The position numbers and the translations under genes are program-made. Below are positions 34,438 through 48,323 of a stretch of 64,000 bases of DNA, piece after piece. The stretch's first letter is position 1. The number at the start of each line of letters is the position of its first letter. Source of the stretch: a bacterium (GTDB taxonomy: Bacteria; Pseudomonadota; Gammaproteobacteria; Burkholderiales; Thiobacillaceae); NCBI GenBank assembly GCA_009772925.1, contig WOUQ01000004.1:166566-230565 (forward strand), written 5' to 3'. The notes beneath the pieces were generated by a model. It was not told where the DNA came from, did not search any database, and worked only from the letters and a program-made list of their open reading frames with translations.

Positions 34438-34514
34438 CGGGGCGTAGCGCAGCCTGGTAGCGCACCTGCATGGGGTGCAGGGGGTCGGAAGTTCGAATCT
34501 TCTCGCCCCGACCA
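34438..34514 (+). tRNA. tRNA-Pro (anticodon GGG); attachment site of the element
   Basis: CGGGGCG/CGCCCCG acceptor, CCTGC-ATGGGGT-GCAGG anticodon arm, TTCGAAT T-loop, CCA encoded; TATAAT box upstream. Confidence 0.95.
34467..34514 (+). repeat. attL: 3' part of tRNA-Pro, direct repeat with attR
   Basis: 46/48 identity to 48276..48323, including a 31-bp exact core GTCGGAAGTTCGAATCTTCTCGCCCCGACCA. Confidence 0.93.
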
Positions 34515-34582
34515 AATAAATCAAAGACTTACCAGAAAGTCGGACCAAGAAAGCCAGCCTTCCCAGCTGGCTTTTTTCATTT

Positions 34583-34603
34583 CTGTAGCCAACCTGTAGC
34601 CAA
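34583..34603 (+). repeat. Left pair of CTGTAGCCAA repeats (putative integrase arm sites)
   Basis: CTGTAGCCAA at 34583-34592 and 34594-34603, 11-bp period. Confidence 0.7.
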
Positions 34604-34635
34604 AGCCGATTCCCTAGGGGGGTGGTGGCACAGAC

Positions 34636-34664
34636 GAAAAAAAACAGCCCCGAAGCGGGGCTGT
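34636..34664 (-). terminator. Intrinsic terminator at the end of the element's minus-strand gene array
   Basis: Reverse strand ACAGCCCCGCTTCGGGGCTGT followed by TTTTTTTT. Confidence 0.85.
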
Positions 34665-34745
34665 GAATGCCCGGCTATGCGCCGGGCAGGGAGGTCGGGG
34701 AAAGCTACCCCATAGGCAGCACCGAATAAATCGCTTGTAGGGCCC

Positions 34746-35558
34746 CTACGCAGCTTCGGCGTCGGTTTCCAGCTGGCTTGCCTTGCTGATGTTGCCGAAT
34801 TCGTCCCTGATGATGCTGGTCTCCGTCCGGCGCGGCGGCAGGCTCACGGTGACGGCAGCCGGGGGGGTGTTGATCGTGGCCTCAAGCGTGACGGGGGTGG
34901 GCTCGACCACGATCTTGTTCTCGACCACGATCTGCTGCGGCGCCGGGGGCGCGGCCTCCTCGCGCTTCGGGGGGTGGTCCAGGAAATAGCGCAGCGCCGC
35001 CTCCAGGCGGGCCTGGAGCAGGCGCAGGGCCGGCAGGACGCGGTCGGTGAGTCCCGCCCTGGTCGCCTTGGACTGGGTCTGCCAGTCGTTGATGAGGGTG
35101 ATCTGCTTGTCGAAGGACTGGAGCACCTTCTCGGTTCCGTAGCTTGGCTTCCGCGCCATGGAGCTTTCAGTATTGCCCCGCTGCCGGCGCAGATTCAGCA
35201 GCCGCTCGGCCTGCTCGTTTCCCATGCGATCGATGTTGGCCAGGTCCTTCTCCACGGCGGCGATCTCCTTGCGAATCCAGCCCATCAGCTGGGCCTGGAC
35301 GGGGTAGCCGTCGCGCACGATGCTGGCCTGATATTGCACGGTGCCGAGCCAGCCGAGTTCGATCAGGCGCACCTGAATGCCGTCATCGGCGGCCTTGACC
35401 AAGGCGTCCCGGTAGGCGGCCTGGTCGAAGGCGACGGGGGGGAATACGGCGGGGCCGGCAGGTTGAACAGCAGCGGCTTTGGCGGGCTTGCTGGCGCGGG
35501 TCTTTTCAGGGGCGGGCCTCGCGGCGCGGGGCTGTACGGGTCTCGATTGCATGGGCAT
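34746..35558 (-). CDS. Hypothetical phage-type protein
   Basis: MPMQSRPVQPRAARPAPEKTRASKPAK...; downstream of the RadC-like gene; start ATG at 35558 chosen to avoid overlap. Confidence 0.6.
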   Translation of the reverse strand: MPMQSRPVQPRAARPAPEKTRASKPAKAAAVQPAGPAVFPPVAFDQAAYRDALVKAADDGIQVRLIELGWLGTVQYQASIVRDGYPVQAQLMGWIRKEIAAVEKDLANIDRMGNEQAERLLNLRRQRGNTESSMARKPSYGTEKVLQSFDKQITLINDWQTQSKATRAGLTDRVLPALRLLQARLEAALRYFLDHPPKREEAAPPAPQQIVVENKIVVEPTPVTLEATINTPPAAVTVSLPPRRTETSIIRDEFGNISKASQLETDAEAA

Positions 35559-35569
35559 GGCACGTCCTT

Positions 35570-36097
35570 TCAGGAAGTGAGGGCCCCGCCGCAGTGCGGG
35601 CAGCGGGGGCCGGGGGTGGTTTCGGTGGGGTCGTGGTCGACCAGGTCCTCCAGGCGCACGATGTGCCCGGTGCGGATGTCGGCGACGCCGTTGCTGGCGA
35701 TCACCATGTGGCGCAACACCATGCAGCCCACCGCGGCCAGCTGGCTGTCCAGGGTATCCGCGGCCTCGCGGTCCTCCGGGCTGGGGGTGGGGTCGCCGTT
35801 CGGGTGGCAGTGCGCGAAGACCGCATGGCAGGCGCCATGCAGGGCTGCACGGCGGGCCGGCAGGTACTTGTCGTACACCAGGCCGTGAAGGCCGCCCACA
35901 GACAGTTCCTCGACTTCGATCAGCCGACAGTCGCGGTCCAGGAAGTAGCCCAGCAGCCGCTCCACCTCGGAATCGTGCAGCTGCAGCATGGCTGCGGCGA
36001 TCACGCGGCCGGTATCGGTGTAGTCCGGCATCCCATCGCGCCGCAGCTGGCGGATGGCGGCCTGCAGGCCGGCCTGGATGGTGGCGGCCTCGTTCAT
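35570..36097 (-). CDS. RadC/JAB (MPN) domain protein
   Basis: HCHPNGDPTPSPEDREAADTLDSQLAAVGCMVLRHMVIASNGV; start ATG at 36097. Confidence 0.78.
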   Translation of the reverse strand: MNEAATIQAGLQAAIRQLRRDGMPDYTDTGRVIAAAMLQLHDSEVERLLGYFLDRDCRLIEVEELSVGGLHGLVYDKYLPARRAALHGACHAVFAHCHPNGDPTPSPEDREAADTLDSQLAAVGCMVLRHMVIASNGVADIRTGHIVRLEDLVDHDPTETTPGPRCPHCGGALTS

Positions 36098-36747
36098 TCG
36101 GCCGTCCAACCGCCGGATTCCTGGCGATGGATGCCGGCACCGGCCATCAGGCTGGTGACGCGCTCGCGCAGCTGCACCGGGTCCAGGGCGGACAGGCGCA
36201 GTCGGGTGAGCCCGTCCAAGGCCCGCTCCAGGGCGGTGGCCTCGGCGGTCAGGTCGCGCAATTCGGCCTGCGCCTTGGCGACCTCCTCCCGGGGCGGCGG
36301 CGACGCCCACCAGTTCCCGGGCTGCGCCCCCATCTCGGCCAGGCGCAGGCGGGCCTCGGCGATGTCCGGCGCGAGCCCGCGCAGGCCGCTGTCGACCAGG
36401 CCGATGGCGGTTTCCAGATCGGTCTCGCCCAGGTCCGGGTCGGTGACCAGACGGGTGAGCAGGTTGGACTCGCGGCCACGGGCCTGGGCGATCTGACCCT
36501 GGGCTTGCCACAGGGCGGCGTTGGCGGCCTCCAGGGCCTGCTGGCAGGTCTTGACCTTGGCCTCCAGGGCGGGGACGGTCTTCTCGGCCTTGGCGGCGTC
36601 GGCGATGGCCGAGTGGGCGCCGGAGATCAGTTCCTGGCGCAGCCTGGCCTTGGCGGCCTGTTCCTGCGCGGCTTGCTCGGCCACCATGGACTGGAATCCA
36701 GGTAGTTTCTCAACGAACTTGGCGATGTCGGCTTGGGTGATCTGCAT
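36094..36747 (-). CDS. Coiled-coil hypothetical phage-type protein
   Basis: 217 aa, heptad-rich; overlaps the start of the RadC-like gene by ATGA-type coupling. Confidence 0.65.
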   Translation of the reverse strand: MQITQADIAKFVEKLPGFQSMVAEQAAQEQAAKARLRQELISGAHSAIADAAKAEKTVPALEAKVKTCQQALEAANAALWQAQGQIAQARGRESNLLTRLVTDPDLGETDLETAIGLVDSGLRGLAPDIAEARLRLAEMGAQPGNWWASPPPREEVAKAQAELRDLTAEATALERALDGLTRLRLSALDPVQLRERVTSLMAGAGIHRQESGGWTAE

Positions 36748-36759
36748 GATTCTTTCCTT

Positions 36760-38871
36760 TCAGTAGGGATTGCGCGTGATCCGTATCCGCCGCAAGGGAG
36801 GACGCGGGGGAACTACGGCCACCGGAGTGGGCGCAGGGGATGCGGGGGTGGATTCCGTTTCCGTGGCTTCTTCCGCGTCGCCGGTCGCAGGGAATAGTCC
36901 CTGCTGGCGGATGCGGGATTCCACGAGGTCCCACCAATGCGTTTTCTTGGCGTGCAGCCCGAGGGCATGCACCAGCCACACGGCGTACACACAGCAGTCC
37001 AGTGCCTCGTTGGCGCGATCGGTGCGCTTCTTCCATTGCCGCCGGCGGGGGTTGATGCGCATGGGGATCTTCAACTCGGAAAGCAACTGCTCGTAGAAGT
37101 CTGGCCGCACGGTCTGGTACCAGTGCATGCGCAGCGGGCCGTTGCCGGTGAGGCGCACGCGGCCGCCTTCCTGCGCCCAGCCCAGGATGCTGTCCTTGGC
37201 GCGGGCAGTGCCGACAATCTGCACCTGCACGCCGTGCTTGTCGGACTTCCGGCCGCTGCGGTGGGGGTCCAGGGTGGCGCTGGCGGGCGGGCGCCATATC
37301 TCCACCTTGCCTTCGGAGTCGCTGGCCCCCTTCACCGCATACACGGGGCGGCCTGGGCGGTTGCGCTTGCGCACGAAGTCGTACACGGCGCCGCTGGTCT
37401 GGCCGTCCGAGGAATCGATGGCCACGGCGGCGATCTTCAGTTGTGCGCCACTGGCGTGCTCGACGGCCTGTTCCAGCATCTGGTCCAGGTCCAGCCAGGC
37501 GCCGGCGAAGGCCACCACCGTGGGGCCATAGAGTTCACCCCAGAAAGCCAGCCACATTTCCTCGCGCCGGCCCGCCACCCAGCAGGTGACGGCCAGGCGG
37601 TCGTGTTGCACGTCGACGGTGAGCAGGGGTATCAGGCCGCCCTCGGGGGCCGTCCACTGCGCATAGGGCTCGGCGCGGGCCTCCAGTTCCGACTCCTCGG
37701 GCAGTTCGCCGCGATACTCCCAGGGCAGGCCCAGGGTGGAGTTCCAGAAGGCGATCATCTCCGAGTTGTCGCCCTCGTCTTGCTTGTGCTTGGCCTCCAG
37801 GTACTTGCGCGCCAGCACGGGCACGCGGCTGCCGGGGAACGTGGACAGCAGCTCGTTCAGCAGGAAGCCGACGGCGCCGGTAGCCGGGGCGGTGGCCTCG
37901 AAGTGGCCCTGGTGGATGGCCGCGTGGCGCTCCTCCTCGGTCCATGGGGCCTTGCAGGCGGGGCAGGTGTAGTAGGCCTGTTCCCAGCGGGCCTCGCCGT
38001 AGATTTCCCGGGCGGGCTGGCTGGCGTCCTCGGGGATCACCACGTTGTCCCAGGCGGGAACGTGTTCCTGGCCGCAGTGCGGGCAGGGCACCAGGTACTT
38101 GCGCTGATCGGAGGCGAGGATCTCTGCTTCGATGCTGCTGGCGCCCTTGGCGGTGGGCGTGCCGCCAATCAGCACCAGGTGATCCGGGTAGGCCTTGGCC
38201 CGCTCCTCGGCCAGCTTGATGGAGTCGCCCTGGGCGCCGGCCACGTTGCTGCTGGCATCGTCCGGTTCTTCGATAGCGACGATGCGGGCGGAGGTGGACT
38301 TCACGTCGCTGGGGCTGTTGCTGCCCACCAGCTTGATCAAGCCACCGGGGTAGTGCTTCCGGGTGGCGGAGTTACCGGCCGCGCGGCTCTTCAGGCTGAT
38401 GCGCTCGGCCAGGGGCGCGGTGGCCCGCACCATGGGGTCGAACTTCTCCGCGGCGTAGTCCTTCGCGGACTTCTCGCGCGGGAAGACCACCACCTGCACG
38501 CTGGGCCGATGGTGTACGTGGTAGCCCATGACGTTGCACAGCACGCCGACGGTGTAGCCGATCTGCGCGGATTTCATGACCACCACCTTACGGATGTCCG
38601 GGTCGGAGCAGGCCTGGAGGATGGGGCGCAGTGCCGGGGTGTAGGCCATGGAATAGCGGCCCGGGGTGGCGGACTCCTCCGGACTCAGCACGCGGTATTT
38701 CTCGGCCCAGGCATCGATGCTCATCTTGGGAGGCGGCGCCAGCTCGGCCCATACCCGCGCCAGCAGGGCGTCCAGGGATGCGGCGGTCCGGGACCTGCCC
38801 TCCAGGGCGTCCAGGGCGTCAGCGGCCCAGGTGGCGCCGGGGGGCAGGGCCAGGCCCATGGGGGTGTTCAC
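36760..38871 (-). CDS. Phage terminase large subunit, lambda GpA type
   Basis: 703 aa; VVVMKSAQIGYTVGVLCNVMGYHV, GGTPTAKGASSIEAEILASDQRKYLVPCPHCGQ, LTVDVQHDRLAVTCWVAG. Confidence 0.93.
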   Translation of the reverse strand: MNTPMGLALPPGATWAADALDALEGRSRTAASLDALLARVWAELAPPPKMSIDAWAEKYRVLSPEESATPGRYSMAYTPALRPILQACSDPDIRKVVVMKSAQIGYTVGVLCNVMGYHVHHRPSVQVVVFPREKSAKDYAAEKFDPMVRATAPLAERISLKSRAAGNSATRKHYPGGLIKLVGSNSPSDVKSTSARIVAIEEPDDASSNVAGAQGDSIKLAEERAKAYPDHLVLIGGTPTAKGASSIEAEILASDQRKYLVPCPHCGQEHVPAWDNVVIPEDASQPAREIYGEARWEQAYYTCPACKAPWTEEERHAAIHQGHFEATAPATGAVGFLLNELLSTFPGSRVPVLARKYLEAKHKQDEGDNSEMIAFWNSTLGLPWEYRGELPEESELEARAEPYAQWTAPEGGLIPLLTVDVQHDRLAVTCWVAGRREEMWLAFWGELYGPTVVAFAGAWLDLDQMLEQAVEHASGAQLKIAAVAIDSSDGQTSGAVYDFVRKRNRPGRPVYAVKGASDSEGKVEIWRPPASATLDPHRSGRKSDKHGVQVQIVGTARAKDSILGWAQEGGRVRLTGNGPLRMHWYQTVRPDFYEQLLSELKIPMRINPRRRQWKKRTDRANEALDCCVYAVWLVHALGLHAKKTHWWDLVESRIRQQGLFPATGDAEEATETESTPASPAPTPVAVVPPRPPLRRIRITRNPY

Positions 38872-39335
38872 TCGACGGCCTCAGGCTGTTGGGACTGCTG
38901 CCAGTCGGCGAGCTTGCCCAGCACCTCGTCGAAGAGATCGCGCAGCTGGGTTTCCCGCTCGGCCCGGTCCTTGCCTTCCATGGCAACGGCGATGCGCGCA
39001 GGTTCGCTGCGGATGCGCTCCCGGGCGGCCACCACCGCGGCCTTCATCGCCGGCTCGATGGCGGCGGCGGGCACCAGCTGGGCGCGCTTCTCGGCGAGGC
39101 GCAGTTCCATGTCATCGGCTTGCAGGCGGTGGAGGCGGTCCTTCGGGGATTCGGCCTGCACCTTGCGCACCTCGCGGTCGACCAGCCAGCGAATGCAGGC
39201 GGCGGCGTCGTACTCGTTGGGCACCCCACGGCCGCCCTGGACAGCCACGGGGAAGCCGGCTTCCTGCCATTCGACGATGGTCTTGGGGGCCACTCCCATC
39301 ATTTCGGCGATCTTGTCCTGGCCAATCACACGCAT
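38868..39335 (-). CDS. Terminase small subunit, Nu1-like
   Basis: 155 aa; MerR-like HTH IAEMMGVAPKTIVEWQEAGFPV; overlaps the terminase large subunit start. Confidence 0.82.
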   Translation of the reverse strand: MRVIGQDKIAEMMGVAPKTIVEWQEAGFPVAVQGGRGVPNEYDAAACIRWLVDREVRKVQAESPKDRLHRLQADDMELRLAEKRAQLVPAAAIEPAMKAAVVAARERIRSEPARIAVAMEGKDRAERETQLRDLFDEVLGKLADWQQSQQPEAVE

Positions 39336-39428
39336 GGATTACTCACATCTAAGTCATTGATATAACTAGGGAATGATCGCGGTCGGGATGGCCCGTGTGT
39401 CGCAACCCCTGGGAAGGACCCTGAGTTT

Positions 39429-40139
39429 TCATCGGGCGGTCCTCACTGCCTGGCGATAGGCCGCGCGGAAGTGGCCCGCGAACTCCTTGGCCATCACGCC
39501 CCGGGCCATCTCGGGTAGGTCGATCACCTTGCGGTATCCGGCGCCCTTGACGAATACCATCATGGCCTTGAGGGCGCGGCCCTTGCGCCAGTACACGCCG
39601 GGCGGGAGATGGGAGCGGGTACCCGGGCGGATGGCGAAATAGCCGGTCAGGGCCATGCGCTTGCCGCGTCCCTTGTACTGCTGCATGCCCGATTTCAGTG
39701 AGCCGAGCATTTCCGCCACCGCGGTGCGCCTGGGGTTGCCGTAGCCATCCAGGGGCATGCCACTGCCGGGGACGGCACGCCAGCCACTGGGCAGGGCGCC
39801 CAGGGCGGCCAGGGCCACCTCCATGGGCTTGTTGCCGCGCACGCCACCGGCGAAGTGTTCCTTGAGCAGCACGGCCGGAGCAGTGCCGCGGCCGGGCTTG
39901 CGATCCCGTATCCCGACCACGGCCTGCAGCTTGTCCCGACGGGCCGCGGTCGAGAAGGTGGAGTTGCGCGAGTAGGGCGTCGAAGACGGCAGTTCCGCGG
40001 CCACCTTGGCCTTGAGGCGCATTTCCAGGCGGCGCGCGGTCTTCGTGAGCGCCACGCCTGCGGCGAAGCGCGCCTGCTTCTGGGCAGAGATCAGGAAGCG
40101 CTGGGTGCGGCCGATGCCCTCAATCCGGATGCGGATCAC
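39429..40139 (-). CDS. Phage minor tail/neck protein-like (gpZ-like)
   Basis: 236 aa basic protein; ...ALTKTARRLEMRLKAKVAAELPSSTPYSRNSTF...; position between tape-measure-like gene and terminase. Confidence 0.5.
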   Translation of the reverse strand: MIRIRIEGIGRTQRFLISAQKQARFAAGVALTKTARRLEMRLKAKVAAELPSSTPYSRNSTFSTAARRDKLQAVVGIRDRKPGRGTAPAVLLKEHFAGGVRGNKPMEVALAALGALPSGWRAVPGSGMPLDGYGNPRRTAVAEMLGSLKSGMQQYKGRGKRMALTGYFAIRPGTRSHLPPGVYWRKGRALKAMMVFVKGAGYRKVIDLPEMARGVMAKEFAGHFRAAYRQAVRTAR

Positions 40140-41866
40140 CGCGCACCCCGTTTCAAGCTGGCCTGACGGATGTAATCATCAATGGCGCCCGCCGATGCAC
40201 CGTTGCCCCAGCTTGCCTGCACAGGCACCACCAGCGGATTACTGGCCAGTTCATCGCGGACCTGCTTGATGACGTTCCGCATCTCGTTGGCCATGGCTTC
40301 CGCCGCTAGCGGCACTGCCACCGGGTCCATGGCGGCAATCTCCAGCTTGGCCTGGTCCAGGGTGCGAGCCAGGGAGTTGGCGGTGGCCTCGGCTGTTTTT
40401 TCCTCGGCGCTGACGATAGCCAGCTCGAAATCGCGCAGACTGCGCGACCAGTAGCTGCCCTCCGGGCCAATCACGCCGGATTCGTTCAGGGCGAGCAGCA
40501 TCTCCTTGGCACGATCCGCCGCGAGACCGGCCGCCGCCGCGTTGCCGCTGTTCAATGCCGCCCGACCAGCCATCAGTTCTCCGGACAGATCGAGCACCCC
40601 GGAGGCTTCTCCGGGCTTGCCACGGCTAAGGTCCGCCTCCAGGGCGTCGTATTCCGCCGCCAGTGCGCGGCGCTTGGATGTGAACGCGCGCTGATAGTCA
40701 TCCATTGGCGAGAGGTCAAACGCCTTGCGCAACGAATCTTGCAGCTTTCCGGCCTGTTCATCGGTCAAGATGCCGCTCAAGCCTTCGGCGGTTGCGCGGG
40801 ATAGCTGGCGTATGGCCGTTTCCTGAGAACGGATCATGTCCAACGTGGTAGCGTCCCCGCCGTACTTGTTGCCGCCGATGCTGGTGAAGGCGGCGGGGCC
40901 CTGGATCGGTGCCATGATTTGCTTGATCAGCGCATCGTGCTCCTCACGCCGGCGAAGGGCCGACTCCTTGCCCATTTTTTCGATGGCGAGGGCGGACCTG
41001 AAGTTGCCGGTATAGAACGCCTCATATTTGGCGGCGACATTTCCCATGCTGTCGCCCACCTGATCGAAAACATACGCGACGTTTGCCCAGGACACCCCGA
41101 TGGTCTGGCCAACAGGACCGAGCCGCCCCAAATCGGCCAACATCTGGTCGACGCCTTCTGTGATGCCGGTATTCAGCAAATCGGCCAGGCCGTTGAGGGC
41201 AGGCAGCAGGGCGTTGCCGACAACCACGCTCAGGCCTTCGCCGGCTATTTTCAGATCACCCAGGCTATCGTTGAACCGGGCGGCGGCGTTCGCCATCTCG
41301 GCGGTTACCGGGTAGAGCTTTTGGCCTTGCTCGATCAGGCGTTCCAGGCCGTCGCCGCCTTCGTTGAGGGCGGGGATCAGGTCGGCGCCGGACTTGCCGA
41401 GCAGGCGCATGGCCAGGGCGGTTTTTTCGGCGCCGTCTGGCATGGCGGCGAACACGTCGGCGAGCTGCACCAGGGCGCCGTTGACGTCGCGGCTGGTGAC
41501 GCCGATGCGGGCCAGCAGCGGGTCTCCCTCGGCGATGTTCTTGGCCAGGAAGCGCGCGCCCTTCGCCAGTTCCTCGGTGGAGACGCCGGCGCGGTCTGCC
41601 ACCAGCTTGTAGCCCGCCAGGGTTTCGACGGATACGCCCAAGCGCTGCGACATGTCGGAGAGCGCGTCAGCGGCGTCGATGCCGGATTTGGCGAAGGCCA
41701 GCAGGCCGCCGCCGGCGAGGGCCCCTACGCCAAGCCCGGAGAGTAGATCGGATACTTTGCTGCCGGCGATGTTCAATCGATCCAGACTGCGTCGCGCGGA
41801 TTCGAATGCGGCGCGGGTGCGGTCATCCGCGTCCAGAATGACCTTCGTGTTTTCGACTGATGCCAT
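40136..41866 (-). CDS. Phage tail tape-measure-like protein
   Basis: ILDADDRTRAAFESARRSLDRLNIAGSKVSDLLSGLGVGALAGGGLLAFAKSGIDAADALSDMSQRLGVSVETLAGYKLVADRAGVSTEELAKG. Confidence 0.72.
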   Translation of the reverse strand: MASVENTKVILDADDRTRAAFESARRSLDRLNIAGSKVSDLLSGLGVGALAGGGLLAFAKSGIDAADALSDMSQRLGVSVETLAGYKLVADRAGVSTEELAKGARFLAKNIAEGDPLLARIGVTSRDVNGALVQLADVFAAMPDGAEKTALAMRLLGKSGADLIPALNEGGDGLERLIEQGQKLYPVTAEMANAAARFNDSLGDLKIAGEGLSVVVGNALLPALNGLADLLNTGITEGVDQMLADLGRLGPVGQTIGVSWANVAYVFDQVGDSMGNVAAKYEAFYTGNFRSALAIEKMGKESALRRREEHDALIKQIMAPIQGPAAFTSIGGNKYGGDATTLDMIRSQETAIRQLSRATAEGLSGILTDEQAGKLQDSLRKAFDLSPMDDYQRAFTSKRRALAAEYDALEADLSRGKPGEASGVLDLSGELMAGRAALNSGNAAAAGLAADRAKEMLLALNESGVIGPEGSYWSRSLRDFELAIVSAEEKTAEATANSLARTLDQAKLEIAAMDPVAVPLAAEAMANEMRNVIKQVRDELASNPLVVPVQASWGNGASAGAIDDYIRQASLKRGAR

Positions 41867-41883
41867 GGTGTTTCTCCTCTTTC

Positions 41884-42117
41884 TCAGGCATGGCCCGCGA
41901 CGGGGCAATGAGGCAGGCGCAGGCGCGCCGCCAGGTGTTCGTATTCGACGGCGAGGCGCTCGGCCACGGTGGGCTCGCGGACCTCAACGGCTAGGTTTCT
42001 GGAAAGGACCAAGAGCAGGGACACGGCCTCTTCAGGAGTCAGTTCGAGCAGCGCGATGAGGACGCCGTTGACGGCCCGGTCCAGATCAGCGTCGGTAGCG
42101 GGGAAGAATTGGCGCAT
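41884..42117 (-). CDS. Small hypothetical protein
   Basis: MRQFFPATDADLDRAVNGVLIALLELTPEEAVSLLLVLSRN...; start ATG 42117 preferred because the upstream part of the ORF is the iteron region. Confidence 0.55.
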   Translation of the reverse strand: MRQFFPATDADLDRAVNGVLIALLELTPEEAVSLLLVLSRNLAVEVREPTVAERLAVEYEHLAARLRLPHCPVAGHA

Positions 42118-42134
42118 TTGGGGATCCTTCAACA

Positions 42135-42373
42135 GGTTGGGAAGGTTGGGAGCAGGTTGGGAAGGCTGGAACCCGCGCCAACACTGGGTCTTCCTAACCT
42201 TCCCAACCTTCCTAACGTGTAAATGACACACACACACGGGCGTGCGCGTGCGCGGGTGCGCGGGTGCGCATACGTGCGTGCGGGAAAATAGGTTGGGAAG
42301 GTTAGGAAGGTTGGGAAGCCCCTTATTCCACGCGGCCCGCAGGGTTCCCAACCTGCTCCCAACCTTCCTAACC
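42135..42373. repeat. Symmetric iteron array, candidate replication origin of the element
   Basis: 12 copies of GGTT(G/A)GGA in four triplets (+ at 42135/42144/42155; - at 42192/42201/42210; + at 42291/42300/42309; - at 42346/42357/42366), mirror-symmetric about 42254, with a GT/GC alternating core. Confidence 0.85.
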
Positions 42374-42382
42374 TCGTGGTTG

Positions 42383-44563
42383 TCACACGCGCGCATGTTC
42401 TTCCCCCATGGGTAGCTGCGCAGGCCTGGTTGCCCTTGCGGCCTCGGGTGGTGTGTACCAGTAGCGGGTGGCCCCCTTGCGCTTCTCGATGCGCCCGCAG
42501 CCCAGCTTGCGCAGGGCCATGCCGATGCGGGTCTGCATGTCGCGGGTGAGCTTGCCGGCGTCCAGTTCCAGCCCGTCCATGGCCGCCATGGCGATGCTGA
42601 AGGGCTTGGGCTTGTTGCTGGTGTCGAACCTTGCGAATACCCAATCGTGCAATGCGTCCACCAGGGACTCGGACTGCTCGCGCTTCAGCTGTTCCGGATC
42701 GAACAGGCGGCGCTGCTCCTCGGCATTCGGGAAGAACCGCTCGCCCGCGTCGTAGGCCACCAGAGCTTCCGCGAAGAGCTGATCGCGGACGGCGCGCAGG
42801 GCGTCGAGGTCGATCTCCCCCACTTCCACCGGCCAGAAGCGCCGGCCGCCGGTGGGGTCCTTATTCCATTCCCACTCGTTCGTGCTGCCGGCGAACACGG
42901 TCTGGCGCGGCACGCGGATGTAGCGACGGCCGTAGGGCGGCCGGTATTCGTCCTGCTGGCGCGAGAGGAAGCTCTTCTGCTTCATGGCCTCCGCCCGGGC
43001 CAGCGAGCCCAGTTCCGCGAACTCGTAGAGCCATTTGCCCTGCAAAGCGGACATGGAATCCTTGTTGCCCAAATCCAGATCGGTGTCGCCGAACCACTCC
43101 CCACCCAGGATCGCCAGGGCGGTGGACTTCCCCCTGCCCTGGGGGCCTTCCAACACGAGGCAGTAGTCGAACTTGACGCCGGGGCGCATGACGCGGACCA
43201 CCATGCCCATCAGGTACCACCGCGCCACGCGCATGCTGTATTCGGTTTTGGCCACGCCCAGGAAGTCCGCCAGCCAGTGTTCCAGGCGTGGCGTACCGTC
43301 CCATCGCAGTGTGCGCAGCCAATCGCGTACGGGGTGGAAGGCACGCGCGCGGGCCAGCACCTCGACGGCTTCCGCCACCAGGCCGGTCGAAGGCGTGAAG
43401 CGATAGAGCCTGGAAAGCCACATGGCGGTGCGGCTGTCATCCGTTGTATCCCACTCACCGACCACGCCAGCCGGATACGGCGGCGGTCTCAGCTTCACGG
43501 TGCGCTGATCGAACTCATTGAGCGCCACCACGCCGGCCCAGGCGGGATCGTTGGCGAGGATGTCGAAGACGTTTGCGAGACAGGCCTGAAGCTCGCCACG
43601 GGTGTAGAGCAGCTTCTTTTTCCAGTCGGGCGCATCATCATCCAGTTGGGGGGCACGCTTGCCACCCCGCTGGCGTGGCGGCTTGGGCGGCTGCCAGCCG
43701 GCATCCATGGCCAGCTTGAACAAGGTGGCGCCGGTGATACCGCCGCCCGGATCGAAACTTTTCCAGTGCTGGGCCACCACCTGGTGACCAGGGTATTTGG
43801 CGGACTTCGCCGACCAGGCGTCCCACACGTCCATGGCGCCGCTGCCCAGTTCCGCGCATATGGCCATGCCGATGTGTATCCAGTCGTCGAAGCCGCACTC
43901 CGGCGACACGAAGGCCAGGGCGGATTCCAACTTGGCGCGGCCCTCCAAGGCTGGCGCGGGCGCCGTGGCCGGCTTCCCGTCGGCGCGCTTCTTGGAAGAC
44001 TTCACGGTGGCGCGCAGGCGGGCCAGCACCTGATCGGAAATCGGCTTCACCTCGCCCGGCGTGCCCGGGTAGGGACGGCCTGTCACCGTGAAGTACTGGC
44101 GCCCGCAGAAAACCTCGACGCCAATCTCGTTGCTTTTGAAGGTGTCCGTGGCGCCGGCGACGATGATGTGAACACCCTTGCCGCTCGGGCTGAACTCCGT
44201 GTAGCTCCCGCAGGCCTGGATGATGTTCCGTCCCCGCTCGCTGATCTCGCCGGAGCCGGTGTCGATCATGGCGTCCAGGTCGATGCCGATGAGGCCGTCA
44301 CCGGGCAGGAAGGCGAAGCCCAGTCCGTCCCATTTGCCCTTCGCCAGATCAGCCAGGGCGGGTTCAAATTCCGCCAGGGCGGCGCGGTCCGCATCCGAAC
44401 CTTGCACGCCCACCCGCCGCTTGCCGCTGACGTAATGGGGCACCTTGCGCGGCTTCTTGTCTCCGGCCTTGGCTTCGAAGCGCCAAAGCAGCCATTGCTT
44501 CCGCTGGCGGAGTTCCACAGGGATGACAGATGGATCGATGCCATTGGCCGTCATACCAGCCAC
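42383..44563 (-). CDS. Primase-helicase: Prim-Pol-like N-term + PriCT-2-like + VapE-type helicase
   Basis: 726 aa; IDLDAM, SGKGVHIIVAG, FCGRQYFTVTGRPYPG; Walker A LEGPQGRGKSTAL; FAGSTNEWEWNKDPTGGRRFWPVEV. Confidence 0.88.
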   Translation of the reverse strand: MAGMTANGIDPSVIPVELRQRKQWLLWRFEAKAGDKKPRKVPHYVSGKRRVGVQGSDADRAALAEFEPALADLAKGKWDGLGFAFLPGDGLIGIDLDAMIDTGSGEISERGRNIIQACGSYTEFSPSGKGVHIIVAGATDTFKSNEIGVEVFCGRQYFTVTGRPYPGTPGEVKPISDQVLARLRATVKSSKKRADGKPATAPAPALEGRAKLESALAFVSPECGFDDWIHIGMAICAELGSGAMDVWDAWSAKSAKYPGHQVVAQHWKSFDPGGGITGATLFKLAMDAGWQPPKPPRQRGGKRAPQLDDDAPDWKKKLLYTRGELQACLANVFDILANDPAWAGVVALNEFDQRTVKLRPPPYPAGVVGEWDTTDDSRTAMWLSRLYRFTPSTGLVAEAVEVLARARAFHPVRDWLRTLRWDGTPRLEHWLADFLGVAKTEYSMRVARWYLMGMVVRVMRPGVKFDYCLVLEGPQGRGKSTALAILGGEWFGDTDLDLGNKDSMSALQGKWLYEFAELGSLARAEAMKQKSFLSRQQDEYRPPYGRRYIRVPRQTVFAGSTNEWEWNKDPTGGRRFWPVEVGEIDLDALRAVRDQLFAEALVAYDAGERFFPNAEEQRRLFDPEQLKREQSESLVDALHDWVFARFDTSNKPKPFSIAMAAMDGLELDAGKLTRDMQTRIGMALRKLGCGRIEKRKGATRYWYTPPEAARATRPAQLPMGEEHARV

Positions 44564-44630
44564 CCGCCACTGAGGCCCACCAGGACCATGCCCGTTTCAG
44601 GGCACTGGACATTGCGGCACCAGCTTTCCT

Positions 44631-44843
44631 TCACCGGAAAAGGACGCCCTGGAAGTACACACGCCGGGCGTTTCGCTGTGCATAGGCCGCCAGGACCAGG
44701 CCGGCCAGTGCGGGGGTGTCCCTGCGAGTCAGTTGCAGGCGACGTTGGCTGCATGCATGGGACTCGCGGCGCAGCTGGGCCAGCAGCCGGCGGCGGCGGC
44801 GCTCGATGCGCCAGGCGGGCCTGGGTTTCTTGCTGGTCGGCAT
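44631..44843 (-). CDS. Small basic hypothetical protein
   Basis: 70 aa, MPTSKKPRPAWRIERRRRRLLAQLRRES...; between alpA-like and primase genes. Confidence 0.4.
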   Translation of the reverse strand: MPTSKKPRPAWRIERRRRRLLAQLRRESHACSQRRLQLTRRDTPALAGLVLAAYAQRNARRVYFQGVLFR

Positions 44844-45118
44844 CAGCCGCCCCGGTGCGGGAAACGGTGTGCGGTGCCGACGGGGGGCAGGGTCCTGCCA
44901 GCCTGAATTTTCCTGATCACCCAGCCATGCACCTCGCTCTGCACCCAGCGCAGGTTATTGCCGGCGCCGAGCGAGACAGGGCGTGGGAAGGTGGGATCGT
45001 AGTATTTCGAGTCTGGGTTCAACCTCTCCCAGAGTGCAGTGCGGCCCAAGCCCGTCATCCGCTCGACATCCTGCCGGCGGATCAAGGCCTCTTTGAGGTT
45101 TTCCAGCAGTTCGCCCAT
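44843..45118 (-). CDS. AlpA-like regulator/excisionase
   Basis: LIRRQDVERMTGLGRTALWERLNPDSKYYDPTFPRPVSLGAGNNLRWVQSEVHGWVIRKIQ. Confidence 0.82.
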   Translation of the reverse strand: MGELLENLKEALIRRQDVERMTGLGRTALWERLNPDSKYYDPTFPRPVSLGAGNNLRWVQSEVHGWVIRKIQAGRTLPPVGTAHRFPHRGG

Positions 45119-45270
45119 TTCCGTTTCCTCGCACAACCTTCGATTCCGGTTTGAATCGAACACGCGCTCAGCATAGGGAGGCGGCGCAGATGCAGCGAGT
45201 AACGGCGCATGGGGGCTTAATTCGTCCCTTTAGTTACTTTACTTTGTTGCGCGGTTGTGGGCTGGGTGGG

Positions 45271-45434
45271 TCTGGAAGGCCGGTTTCTGGAAATTATCAC
45301 CACTGGTGATAATTACCGAAACCTCACCGAACGGCGCTTCCTGCGGCCTGTGACGGGCTGGAAGGGCGCTTTTTGGAAAATGTGTCATCTGGCACAAATC
45401 TCGAAAAACTTACTGAAGGTCGCTTCCTGCGGCC
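45271..45434. repeat. 86-bp tandem repeat carrying two different palindromes upstream of alpA
   Basis: TCTGGAAG (45271) and CGCTTCCTGCGGCC (45335) recur at +86 (45357, 45421); palindromes at 45292-45314 and 45381-45396. Confidence 0.75.
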
Positions 45435-46255
45435 CTGGTGGGGCAGCTTGAGTCCTCTATTTTTTTTGCGCGGTTGCGCGCTTGCAGGACGGCCAGGCGT
45501 GAAACGGGGCGGCCCAACAGTGCGGAGAGCAGCTGGGCCAGGTGGTTGTCCGAGACCGCAAAATCGGCGGGCAGCGACCAGTGCGTGAGGTCCGCCAGGC
45601 GCGCATCGAAAAAGCGCACCAGCGCGGTGACATCGCCCGCGCCGGCCACCCCGCCGGCGCCCAGCGTCGCGTACCCGTAGTACCGCGGCGGGGTGATCTC
45701 CGTGCGCTCCATGGCATCCGCAAGGCCGCGCAGTAGCGGGGCCAGCGCGGGGAAGTCTCGCCAGCCAGGACACTCGATTTTGCAGCCTGTTGCTTCCGCC
45801 CAGGTGGTGAGCAGTTCGTACTCGCCGGCGCTCCAGCCAATCCCCTTGGATTCGCGCAGGGCCACCGCGGCGTCCCATTCGTCGGCCAGTTCGGTGGCCA
45901 GCGCGGCGATCTTTTCCATACGTCGGCCGACCTCCTCAAGGGCCGGTTTCATTTCCGCGTCCAATGCCGCCGGGGTGAGGCATAGCACGTCCAGAAACGC
46001 TTTGTAGGGCACGAGCCGGTCTTCCGGATCGGCGCGCCGGCCCCGGGCCTCGACGGCGTCGACCAACAGCCGCCAGAATGGGGCAAGCGCGGTGGGGAAC
46101 CGATTGCCCTCGGCGGGCGTGGTCCCGTAGAGCAGCCGCTCCAGGTTCCTGATCCATTCCTTGGCGATGGCGGGATCCCATGCACGGGACAAATCGACGG
46201 CCGCCTCCCAGACTTGCGCGGGGACGTGCTCTGGACGTTCGATGTTAATTGTCAT
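45410..46255 (-). CDS. Hypothetical element protein
   Basis: MTINIERPEHVPAQVWEAAVDLSRAWDPAIAKEWIRNLERLLYG...; start ATG at 46255. Confidence 0.65.
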   Translation of the reverse strand: MTINIERPEHVPAQVWEAAVDLSRAWDPAIAKEWIRNLERLLYGTTPAEGNRFPTALAPFWRLLVDAVEARGRRADPEDRLVPYKAFLDVLCLTPAALDAEMKPALEEVGRRMEKIAALATELADEWDAAVALRESKGIGWSAGEYELLTTWAEATGCKIECPGWRDFPALAPLLRGLADAMERTEITPPRYYGYATLGAGGVAGAGDVTALVRFFDARLADLTHWSLPADFAVSDNHLAQLLSALLGRPVSRLAVLQARNRAKKIEDSSCPTRAAGSDLQ

Positions 46256-46319
46256 GTCACGGCCTTTCGGTGCAACTTCGTTGGGGACCACCCCCAGGCT
46301 AGGGGGTGGTGAACTCACG

Positions 46320-46565
46320 TTATGCTGGTTGTGCTGCCACCGGGCTCTGGCTCAGATCGAATTCGTCCAGGCGCTCGGCCAGCTGGCGCAGATCGGCCTC
46401 GATGCGTTGCACCAGGAAGATCCCGGATTGAATTTCCTCGGTGGGAAATCCTTCATTTGACGCCAGCAAGGCATTTGCGCCTTGAGCCATCGCGGCGATC
46501 CTGTAGATACGGTTGATTGCCTCGCCGATGTCTGCGATGTGGGTGGTACAGTCTTTCGTAGCCAT
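46320..46565 (-). CDS. Small hypothetical element protein
   Basis: 81 aa, MATKDCTTHIADIGEAINRIYRIAAMAQGANALL..., between integrase and the 302-aa ORF. Confidence 0.55.
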   Translation of the reverse strand: MATKDCTTHIADIGEAINRIYRIAAMAQGANALLASNEGFPTEEIQSGIFLVQRIEADLRQLAERLDEFDLSQSPVAAQPA

Positions 46566-46647
46566 AGTTCAACTCCTTGCAGTTGGGTCTTGGTCAGGGG
46601 CGGCGTGAGGTTCGGTCTCTCGCTGCCCCGCTATTTGCCTGAAACCG

Positions 46648-48078
46648 TCAGGCGGCGGTCTTGCGAAAACGTCCCGCCAACACGTTGTCCGCGACCAGCC
46701 CGACCAGGTACTTGCCCCAGCTGGCGGCGGCGGCCTTGCGCTCCTTCTCGTAGGTTGCACGGTTGTAGATCGCGGCCAGTTCGTTGCTGGCGGCGTGGTT
46801 CAGGATGCGCTCGATGACGTGCGGCTGGATGCCGACATCCTCGGCCATGCGGGTAGCCACGCTGCGGCGCAGATCGTGGGCGTTGAAGTGGGGCATGTCC
46901 CAGAACGCCTTCACGCCATCGGCCTCCCGCTTATCGGTCCGGAAGCCTTGCCCGGGCATGGGGCGCAGGTGGCGGCCGATGGACTGTTCGACGCTGGCCT
47001 GGCTGATGGGGAACTCCTTCTTGCCGGGTTCGGCGCGGTCCGACAAGAAGACGAAACGGCCCGCGCCGGAGAGGTGGCGCAGCCGCTCCAGGAGCTCCAA
47101 GGCTTGCTTGGGCAGGTAGACGACATGGGTCTGGGGGGCGCTCTTGCGCCGCTCCTCTTTCTTCTGCTTGACGGCCGGGATGCGCCACTCGTCGCCGACG
47201 ATCTCGGACCACTCCATCTCACACACGTAGCCGGTACGCTGGCCCGAGTAGAGGGCCAGGGCGATGACGCCCTTGACTTGCCAGCTGGCCCGCATCTCGG
47301 GCAGGGTGCGCAGGACGATCCGCAGTTCCTCCCGGGTCAGGGCGCGGGCGCGGGTCTGTTCACGCTTGCGGATGGCCCGCTTCTCGATCTTGGCAAAAGG
47401 GCTGATCTCCAGATGGTCCCGGGTCACGGCGTAGCTGAACATGCGCTCCAGGTAGCGCAGCTGGTCATTGGCCAAAGCGTTGGCGCCGCGTTTCTGGGTG
47501 GCCTCCACGATCTCCACCACATGGGCGCGGGTGACGGCCTTCGCCGGGATGTCACGGAACAGGGTAGGGGTGGCGCCGTCTGGCTTGAAGGCGTAGTCCA
47601 GGACGCTGCCCATGACGTCGCGGCGAACCCAATCGGGCTTCTTGAACTCGGGCACGATGCGGTTTTCAAACCACTGTTCGAACAGTCCGCCCACCGTCAC
47701 CTCCAGGCGGGTGCGGCGCTCGGCCTCCTCTTGTCTGGCCCGCTCGGCCTCCTCCCGGCGCTTGGTCTCCGCTTTGCGCTCCATTGGGTCGATCTTGTCG
47801 ATCAGGAGCCGGGTAGCGTCCGCGTTGAGGACGCTCGCCTGGGCGAGGCTGACGCCGGACAAGCCATCGGGATCGAAGTCGGCGAGGTAGTGAGTGACGC
47901 GCTTCCCGGTGGTGGGCGAGACATAGCGGCGGTAGAACTTGACCTTGCCGCTGGCCATGGCCCGGGCCACCAGGCCGTCGCCCTTGGACAGCCATTCCTC
48001 ATTTCCGGATTGCCTGGCCCGGCGTTGGGCGGCTAGTATCGACATTTCCGTGAGTTGTTTGGCTACAGTCCTGCCCAT
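46648..48078 (-). CDS. int: Tyrosine recombinase/integrase (P4-like)
   Basis: C-terminal catalytic motifs ALYSGQRTGYV, HDLRRSVATRM, ILNHA...IYNRATY; ends of element adjacent; ATG at 48078. Confidence 0.95.
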   Translation of the reverse strand: MGRTVAKQLTEMSILAAQRRARQSGNEEWLSKGDGLVARAMASGKVKFYRRYVSPTTGKRVTHYLADFDPDGLSGVSLAQASVLNADATRLLIDKIDPMERKAETKRREEAERARQEEAERRTRLEVTVGGLFEQWFENRIVPEFKKPDWVRRDVMGSVLDYAFKPDGATPTLFRDIPAKAVTRAHVVEIVEATQKRGANALANDQLRYLERMFSYAVTRDHLEISPFAKIEKRAIRKREQTRARALTREELRIVLRTLPEMRASWQVKGVIALALYSGQRTGYVCEMEWSEIVGDEWRIPAVKQKKEERRKSAPQTHVVYLPKQALELLERLRHLSGAGRFVFLSDRAEPGKKEFPISQASVEQSIGRHLRPMPGQGFRTDKREADGVKAFWDMPHFNAHDLRRSVATRMAEDVGIQPHVIERILNHAASNELAAIYNRATYEKERKAAAASWGKYLVGLVADNVLAGRFRKTAA

Positions 48079-48127
48079 GGAACCTTCTCCTTTTTGCAAT
48101 TGGCAACAGCGCAGTCTTGCCGGACGT

Positions 48128-48148
48128 CTGTAGCCAAACTGTAGCCAA
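48128..48148 (+). repeat. Right pair of CTGTAGCCAA repeats (putative integrase arm sites)
   Basis: CTGTAGCCAA at 48128-48137 and 48139-48148, same 11-bp period as the left pair; one inverted copy at 48059-48068. Confidence 0.7.
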
Positions 48149-48275
48149 AAAAGCCCGGTTTGTTAAGAATTATTTTGGTTCGATTCGAACAATAGGAATG
48201 ACGAATATGACGCAACGTACTGAAAACAAACAACTCTCAGGGTTCGTTCCGGACTGATCCGGACCCCGTGCTTTT

Positions 48276-48323
48276 TGCATGGGGTGCAGGTTGTCGGAAG
48301 TTCGAATCTTCTCGCCCCGACCA
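48276..48323 (+). repeat. attR: partial tRNA-Pro copy
   Basis: Direct repeat of 34467..34514 with two mismatches. Confidence 0.93.

Follow-up and report, generated by a model that had tools for sequence, protein, structure and literature searches.

A mirrored twelve-iteron array beside a VapE primase-helicase gene: a probable replication origin of a tRNA-Pro element and of a large phage family

The 64-kb stretch of bacterial DNA analysed here (the window) carries an integrated element of 13.8 kb (approximately 34484-48323). Shared sequences suggest that the host belongs to the family that includes Thiobacillus/Hydrogenophilaceae-type genomes. The element is bounded by a 31-bp perfect direct repeat, of which one copy forms the att site at the 3' end of a tRNA-Pro gene (34484-34514, forward strand) and the second lies at 48293-48323 (forward strand). 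On the reverse strand it encodes its integrase (46648-48099), an AlpA-type regulator or excisionase (44843-45163), and a 726-aa primase-helicase (42383-44563) that consists of a PrimPol-like N-terminus, a PriCT_2 domain, a VapE AAA+ helicase and a C-terminal winged helix, and that is the proposed origin-binding initiator. The 77-aa product of a small gene further along (41884-42117, reverse strand) had no match in Pfam or PHROGs. The gene content of the element also includes two tail-type genes (one minor-tail-type and one tape-measure-type), a Nu1-like TerS, a gpA-like TerL and a RadC-type gene. PICI satellites carry int, xis/AlpA and pri-rep-ori, often also terS, but lack the complete structural genes of a phage. 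Of this gene set, int, AlpA, VapE, the repeat array described below and TerS are present, and TerL and the two tail-type genes come in addition. No capsid or portal gene was recognised between 34484 and 48323, and with its TerS, TerL and tail genes the element is either a prophage in decay or a satellite with an unusual set of genes.

A 239-bp repeat array occupies a single intergenic gap, with the primase-helicase gene on one side and the 77-aa gene on the far side. The window contains 11 exact matches to GGTTRGGA, every one of them inside this array, whereas 100 shuffles of the window gave a mean of 3.0 matches and at most 9. The twelfth unit is CGTTAGGA (42210-42217, reverse strand). The units form four triplets. 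Outer triplet A (42135-42162, forward strand) has three GGTTGGGA units at 42135, 42144 and 42155, and is followed by a 29-bp spacer (42163-42191). Inner triplet B (42192-42217, reverse strand) consists of GGTTAGGA at 42192, GGTTGGGA at 42201 and CGTTAGGA at 42210, in 9-bp steps. The core of 73 bp (42218-42290) is an alternating purine-pyrimidine tract with short T/A-rich edges. Beyond it lie inner triplet C (42291-42316, forward strand; GGTTGGGA at 42291, GGTTAGGA at 42300 and GGTTGGGA at 42309), a second 29-bp spacer (42317-42345) that is the mirror partner of the first, and outer triplet D (42346-42373, reverse strand; GGTTGGGA at 42346 and 42357, GGTTAGGA at 42366). The start positions pair as 42135 with 42366, 42144 with 42357, 42155 with 42346, 42192 with 42309, 42201 with 42300 and 42210 with 42291. 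Because each pair sums to 84501, the reflection about 42254 is exact, including the uneven 9/11-bp spacing. Relative to the primase-helicase gene, the array is on the 3' side, no more than 10 bp past the stop codon at 42383. The first-pass annotation of this DNA had described twelve units in four triplets, an exact mirror about 42254 and a position directly downstream of the primase-helicase gene, and all of these descriptions proved accurate. The dimer GGTTRGGAAGGTTRGGA was present in 5 copies in the 3.2-Mb genome, all within the array, and its reversed control in 0 copies.

Scanning of viral contigs for the dimer GGTTRGGAAGGTTRGGA yielded 88 stretches, many of which had the same layout and an adjoining VapE helicase domain. 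As a less biased sample, relatives were retrieved from genomes by the VapE protein alone (n=15). A complete array was found right after the VapE stop in 13 of these 15 closest genome relatives, and the other two had partial arrays (a half array in L107 and a remnant in L110). In L107 (Nitrosomonas communis) the left half-array is followed by a transposase-like open frame and there is no right half, a pattern suggestive of an insertion. The array thus follows VapE genes that were retrieved independently of it, in agreement with the earlier reading of a replication origin used by the adjoining primase-helicase. The search for such arrays beside VapE genes of other elements, which had been proposed as a check, was also positive, with 80 non-redundant loci collected in all.

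About half of the 15 protein-retrieved relatives used a second repeat word, GGTATGGA. Wider protein-based sampling, which covered the order and class of the host and named phages, revealed the further words GGTAGGAAC (L125), GGTTGGAC and GGTAGGAC. The isolated Marinobacter phage PS3, whose VapE is 40% identical, had 12 units of the word GGKRTGACC in the same layout and in a near-exact mirror. The word therefore varies by lineage while the layout is constant (GGTTRGGA, GGTATGGA, GGTAGGAAC and GGKRTGACC). VapE phages of Corynebacterium, Enterococcus, Paenibacillus and Staphylococcus had repeats of their own at the same place. Iteron arrays with their own words follow VapE in the Corynebacterium phage SamW (L233), the Enterococcus phage phiFL4A (L234) and the Paenibacillus phage Ollie (L235); phiFL4A has a stretch that is alternating yet AT-rich (ATATACATATATAGCGTATATATG). 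Against the origin reading, distant VapE homologues often had a reduced array or lacked one close by: in L054 and L144 the arrays were reduced to three units per side, and no array was found close to VapE in the Pseudomonas phages Haddon and LPPA36, in Phocaeicola BV741P1 and in one podovirus. The array very probably represents a widespread type of phage replication origin.

We compared the geometry of 80 non-redundant VapE loci whose arrays are of the GGTTRGGA or GGTATGGA kind and share the same layout. Array loci were mostly retrieved by their repeat word, and the frequencies among the 80 loci describe arrays, not VapE genes at large. The first unit began a median of 11 nt after the VapE stop. 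The inner triplets had 9-bp steps on both sides, were present as 3+3 in 62 of the 80 loci at ≤1 mismatch, and enclosed a core of 63-113 bp. The nearest outer unit was inverted and lay 36 or 37 bp outward from the distal inner unit (146 instances); beyond it, two more units followed at fixed distances and in one of few orientations. At ≤1 mismatch, six units were counted in 109 of the 160 halves, five in 33 and seven in 1, and 22 halves reached seven when two mismatches were allowed. Per locus, 12 units were found in 42 of the 80 loci, 11 in 21 and 13 in one, which was the only total above 12. Conservation of the symmetry had been suggested as a further check. The layout was kept across loci with differing words, but exact mirror symmetry (within 1 bp), as seen in the window, occurred in 18 of the 80 loci only, and strict symmetry was rejected as the defining rule. 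Conserved instead are the inner 3+3 units, an inverted outer unit placed 36/37 bp away, and a count of six per half. A maximum of six units would be expected if each half accommodated a single ring-shaped hexamer.

Two loci, L102 and L177, had fifteen units, with one more inverted pair, at a distance of 37 bp, added on the side facing VapE; this looks like a duplication of the half-origin module. The spacers of related arrays shared the motif A[CG]CCTGAAASCCGC on both sides, in mirrored orientation (consensus from 61 left and 59 right spacers). Both spacers of the window (42163-42191 and 42317-42345) carry this mirrored motif, and the reverse complement of the left one (5' AGGCTGGAACCCGC...) fits it. 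Hairpins in the 29-bp spacers were rejected, with dyad values of 12.2 on the left and 11.4 on the right against 12.0 and 11.5, respectively, in shuffles.

The alternating purine-pyrimidine centre that had been noticed at first inspection was borne out by counting. In the window core, 79% of the steps alternated, the longest run was 19, and none of 1000 mononucleotide shuffles scored as high. The core sequence itself was not conserved across the 80 loci. The mean alternating fraction was 0.81 in cores versus 0.52 in background windows, and alternation exceeded that of shuffles at p<0.05 in 80 of 80 loci and, by step fraction, at p<0.01 in 75. Alternating runs of at least 14 were present in 92.5% of cores versus 0.25% of background windows. 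The GC content of the core middle ranged from 0.41 to 0.85 (median 0.69; 0.63 for the window core), and short T/A-rich edges adjoined the inner triplets. The core as a palindrome was rejected or weak. Such a tract might be a by-product, either a dinucleotide microsatellite that slippage has extended or the trace of neutral mutation in the DNA between functional iterons, and some cores do have short (GT)n or (CG)n runs. However, CG, CA, TG and TA steps were freely mixed, lag-2 base identity being 0.527 in the cores versus 0.478 in shuffles that preserved only the purine/pyrimidine pattern, so that the microsatellite was rejected; moreover, alternation was kept over the whole GC range of the 80 loci. 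We therefore regard a by-product as unlikely. Because alternation is kept without the sequence and the core is not a microsatellite, selection likely acts on the alternation itself. It may serve Z-DNA formation, flexibility or easy shearing, which are candidate roles.

We then asked which protein reads the iterons, using a tree made from helicase columns only, with the VapE C-terminus left out. The repeat word switched six times on the tree of 34 loci. A single column of the 416 in the alignment separated GGTTRGGA from GGTATGGA arrays perfectly, namely that of Tyr701 in the window (codon at 42461-42463, reverse strand), which was Tyr in 24 of 24 GGTTRGGA loci and Phe in 10 of 10 GGTATGGA loci. 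This column was picked post hoc in the 34 loci and then held in fresh loci: among the 50 usable loci retrieved by the GGTATGGA dimer, none had Tyr at this position (43 Phe, 6 His and 1 Ser). In the combined non-redundant set, word and residue 701 were concordant in 61 of 61 loci, with ten changes of each trait on the tree, and seven supported independent pairs of changes in word and residue were all in the same direction (p=0.016). In the AlphaFold2 model (mean pLDDT 86.9), residues 633-704 (codons 42452-42667, reverse strand) form the predicted C-terminal winged helix, with helices at 633-643, 657-664 and 674-686 and strands at 690-695 and 699-704, and residue 701 falls in the second wing strand. 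For six GGTATGGA arrays the VapE protein had His at the 701 position (L162, L176, L186, L200, L217 and L220), and the right inner triplet of all six showed a 9/8-bp step.

The co-variation of word and residue could also reflect shared ancestry, the iterons being read by another protein, since both traits cluster on the tree. Against this, at least seven supported switches were independent and all were concordant, and no other column of the 416 separated the words perfectly, this one mapping to the wing of a predicted winged helix. In addition, L107 and L108 are closely related and yet unlike in word and residue alike; shared ancestry is accordingly a highly improbable explanation. Depending on the locus, the N-terminal primase part was of the PriCT_2 or the DUF6371-like type, whereas VapE and the array stayed together. 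As residue 701 tracks the word at the same time, the array belongs to the helicase C-terminus. L048 and L032 differ from the window by a swap of the N-terminal primase module (PriCT_2 versus DUF6371-like), with helicase and origin retained. The residue 701 rule is valid within one clade only, because the R-x-W (R-Tyr-W) motif is absent from a second GGTTRGGA clade (L011, L072 and others), whose C-terminus is different. From these sequence comparisons we infer that VapE itself reads the iterons, each unit probably being bound by VapE. A layout that outlasts changes of word, and a VapE winged-helix residue that changes with the word, lend further weight to the origin reading.

The terminase genes of the element point to another possible function, a packaging start (cosB-like) at which the repeats would be binding sites of the small terminase like the R sites of lambda cosB. 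Both terminase genes, for the Nu1-like TerS and the gpA-like TerL, are found downstream in the element, and the distance from the array to the start of TerS is about 1 kb in several phages. Nevertheless, the array adjoins VapE and not terS, from which it is separated in the window by two tail genes and the small gene. It also accompanied large terminases whose identity was as low as 24-30%, and the word tracks the VapE residue rather than the terminase. A cosB-type packaging site was rejected on these grounds and appears very unlikely.

We next compared the array with known origins. P4 alpha is a fused primase-helicase with origin recognition and iterons, and ori and crr of P4 are separate sites; the comparison with P4 is one of general features. 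At the origins of SV40 large T antigen and papilloma E1, inverted recognition sites assemble two hexamers. Two hexameric helicases are also described in the literature (PMC9894130). The origin-binding domain of those proteins is N-terminal (PMC7581432), whereas the one proposed here is C-terminal, and the sites are unrelated. The only sequence-profile match to the helicase part was PDB 7pds, 'PriRep1 with dsDNA' (E=2e-84). The VapE part, including its C-terminus, aligned with six of the six chains of this structure (Foldseek, E ~1e-30), and the N-terminus of the primase-helicase matched NrS-1 PrimPol. In PICIs, the origin lies 3' of rep and two iteron sets flank an AT-rich region; a plasmid with rep and ori replicates, and loss of rep abolishes replication whereas loss of ori reduces it (PMC6092414). 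SaPI Rep reportedly occupies its origin as what appear to be two hexamers (PMC7581432).

The array resembles the SaPI/PICI PriRep origins in having iterons immediately 3' of the primase-helicase gene and around a central tract (PMC6092414; PMC7581432), and in its homologous VapE-type AAA+ helicase (PDB 7pds), whose C-terminal domain is expected to read the iterons and for which a double hexamer is probable. In the window, the site is 3' of the gene, the protein is homologous to PICI Rep, and two iteron sets flank the tract, with two outer sets in addition; the central tract is not AT-rich, only its edges being T/A-rich. PICI origins are described as having two iteron sets and an AT-rich tract; the arrays here have four triplets (6+6) and differ further in the fixed 36/37-bp inverted step, the mirrored spacer motifs and the alternating, usually GC-rich core. 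In contrast to the PICI satellites, the carriers here include full-length phages. In the SCCmec Cch2 origin, too, the helicase uses its C-terminal domain to bind short direct repeats, which are located downstream of the gene that encodes it, but there are three AAGTG iterons only, the helicase is of the SaPI5 Rep/D5-type family, and the primase is a separate, polymerase-type protein (PMC7581432). The array is best read as an origin related to the SaPI/PICI PriRep origins but as a distinct version of them, set apart by its four triplets and by a core that alternates and is usually GC-rich. Of the P4/satellite-type layout named in the first-pass annotation, the iterons beside a primase-helicase are retained, but among the described kinds the SaPI/PICI PriRep origin, not P4 alpha, comes closest.

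No DnaA box (TTWTNCACA) was found in the window, and a DnaA-dependent origin was rejected. GC skew was 0.092 to the left and 0.044 to the right of the array, of the same sign on both sides and confounded with gene direction, and thus gave no clear support to bidirectional replication. Plasmid iteron arrays and P4 crr have roles in the control of expression or copy number. The array might similarly be an operator or incompatibility array (like inc iterons or P4 crr), with replication starting elsewhere, and VapE binding by itself would not prove firing. A plain handling array, however, needs no core, whereas two mirrored six-unit halves surround a special core here and lie 3' of the initiator gene, in the position of the PICI origin (PMC6092414). 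We judge a purely controlling function to be improbable. We conclude with considerable confidence that the array serves as replication origin both for the 13.8-kb tRNA-Pro element and for a large phage family, and that it is bound by the adjoining VapE primase-helicase.

In the mechanism that we propose for this origin, each VapE subunit would read one iteron through its C-terminal winged helix, and a single VapE hexamer would sit on the six iterons of a half-origin (inner plus outer triplet). With the halves in mirrored orientation, two hexamers would be placed head to head, flanking the core of 63-113 bp. ATP-driven rotation or shearing might then open the core or a T-rich edge, flexible pyrimidine-purine steps, in which the core is rich, taking the place of AT-richness. 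Subsequently the helicases would move outward and the fused primase would synthesise primers, resulting in bidirectional replication. Of this scheme, the reading of iterons by the VapE winged helix, the two six-unit halves and the special core are supported by the computational results. A more far-reaching reading is a hitherto undescribed class of phage origins that counts to twelve, with six iterons per half for each hexamer, that is opened at a tract selected for alternation (flexible or Z-DNA-forming), and whose specificity has been switched repeatedly by a single wing residue; we offer this tentatively, as somewhat less probable than even.

In the open-access literature, a VapE-type origin in Gram-negative phages was not found described. 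The same literature yielded nothing on the repeat word, on VapE combined with iterons or on alternating purine-pyrimidine tracts accompanied by iterons. Nor were the 6+6 rule, the conserved alternating core or the one-residue specificity candidate found in open-access sources. Genes for VapE-type primase-helicases are common among the replication genes of temperate phages and satellites, and the origin, the 6+6 number rule, the candidate recognition residue and the candidate opening tract were all derived from sequence alone. With the present data, the PriRep-type origin also covers a large number of phages and prophages, in which the iteron sets are doubled and the core is of another kind. 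Should alternation prove to be the opening signal, it would be an alternative to the AT-rich unwinding element of most known origins. If the one-residue specificity switch is true, families of mutually independent replicons would be easy to predict.
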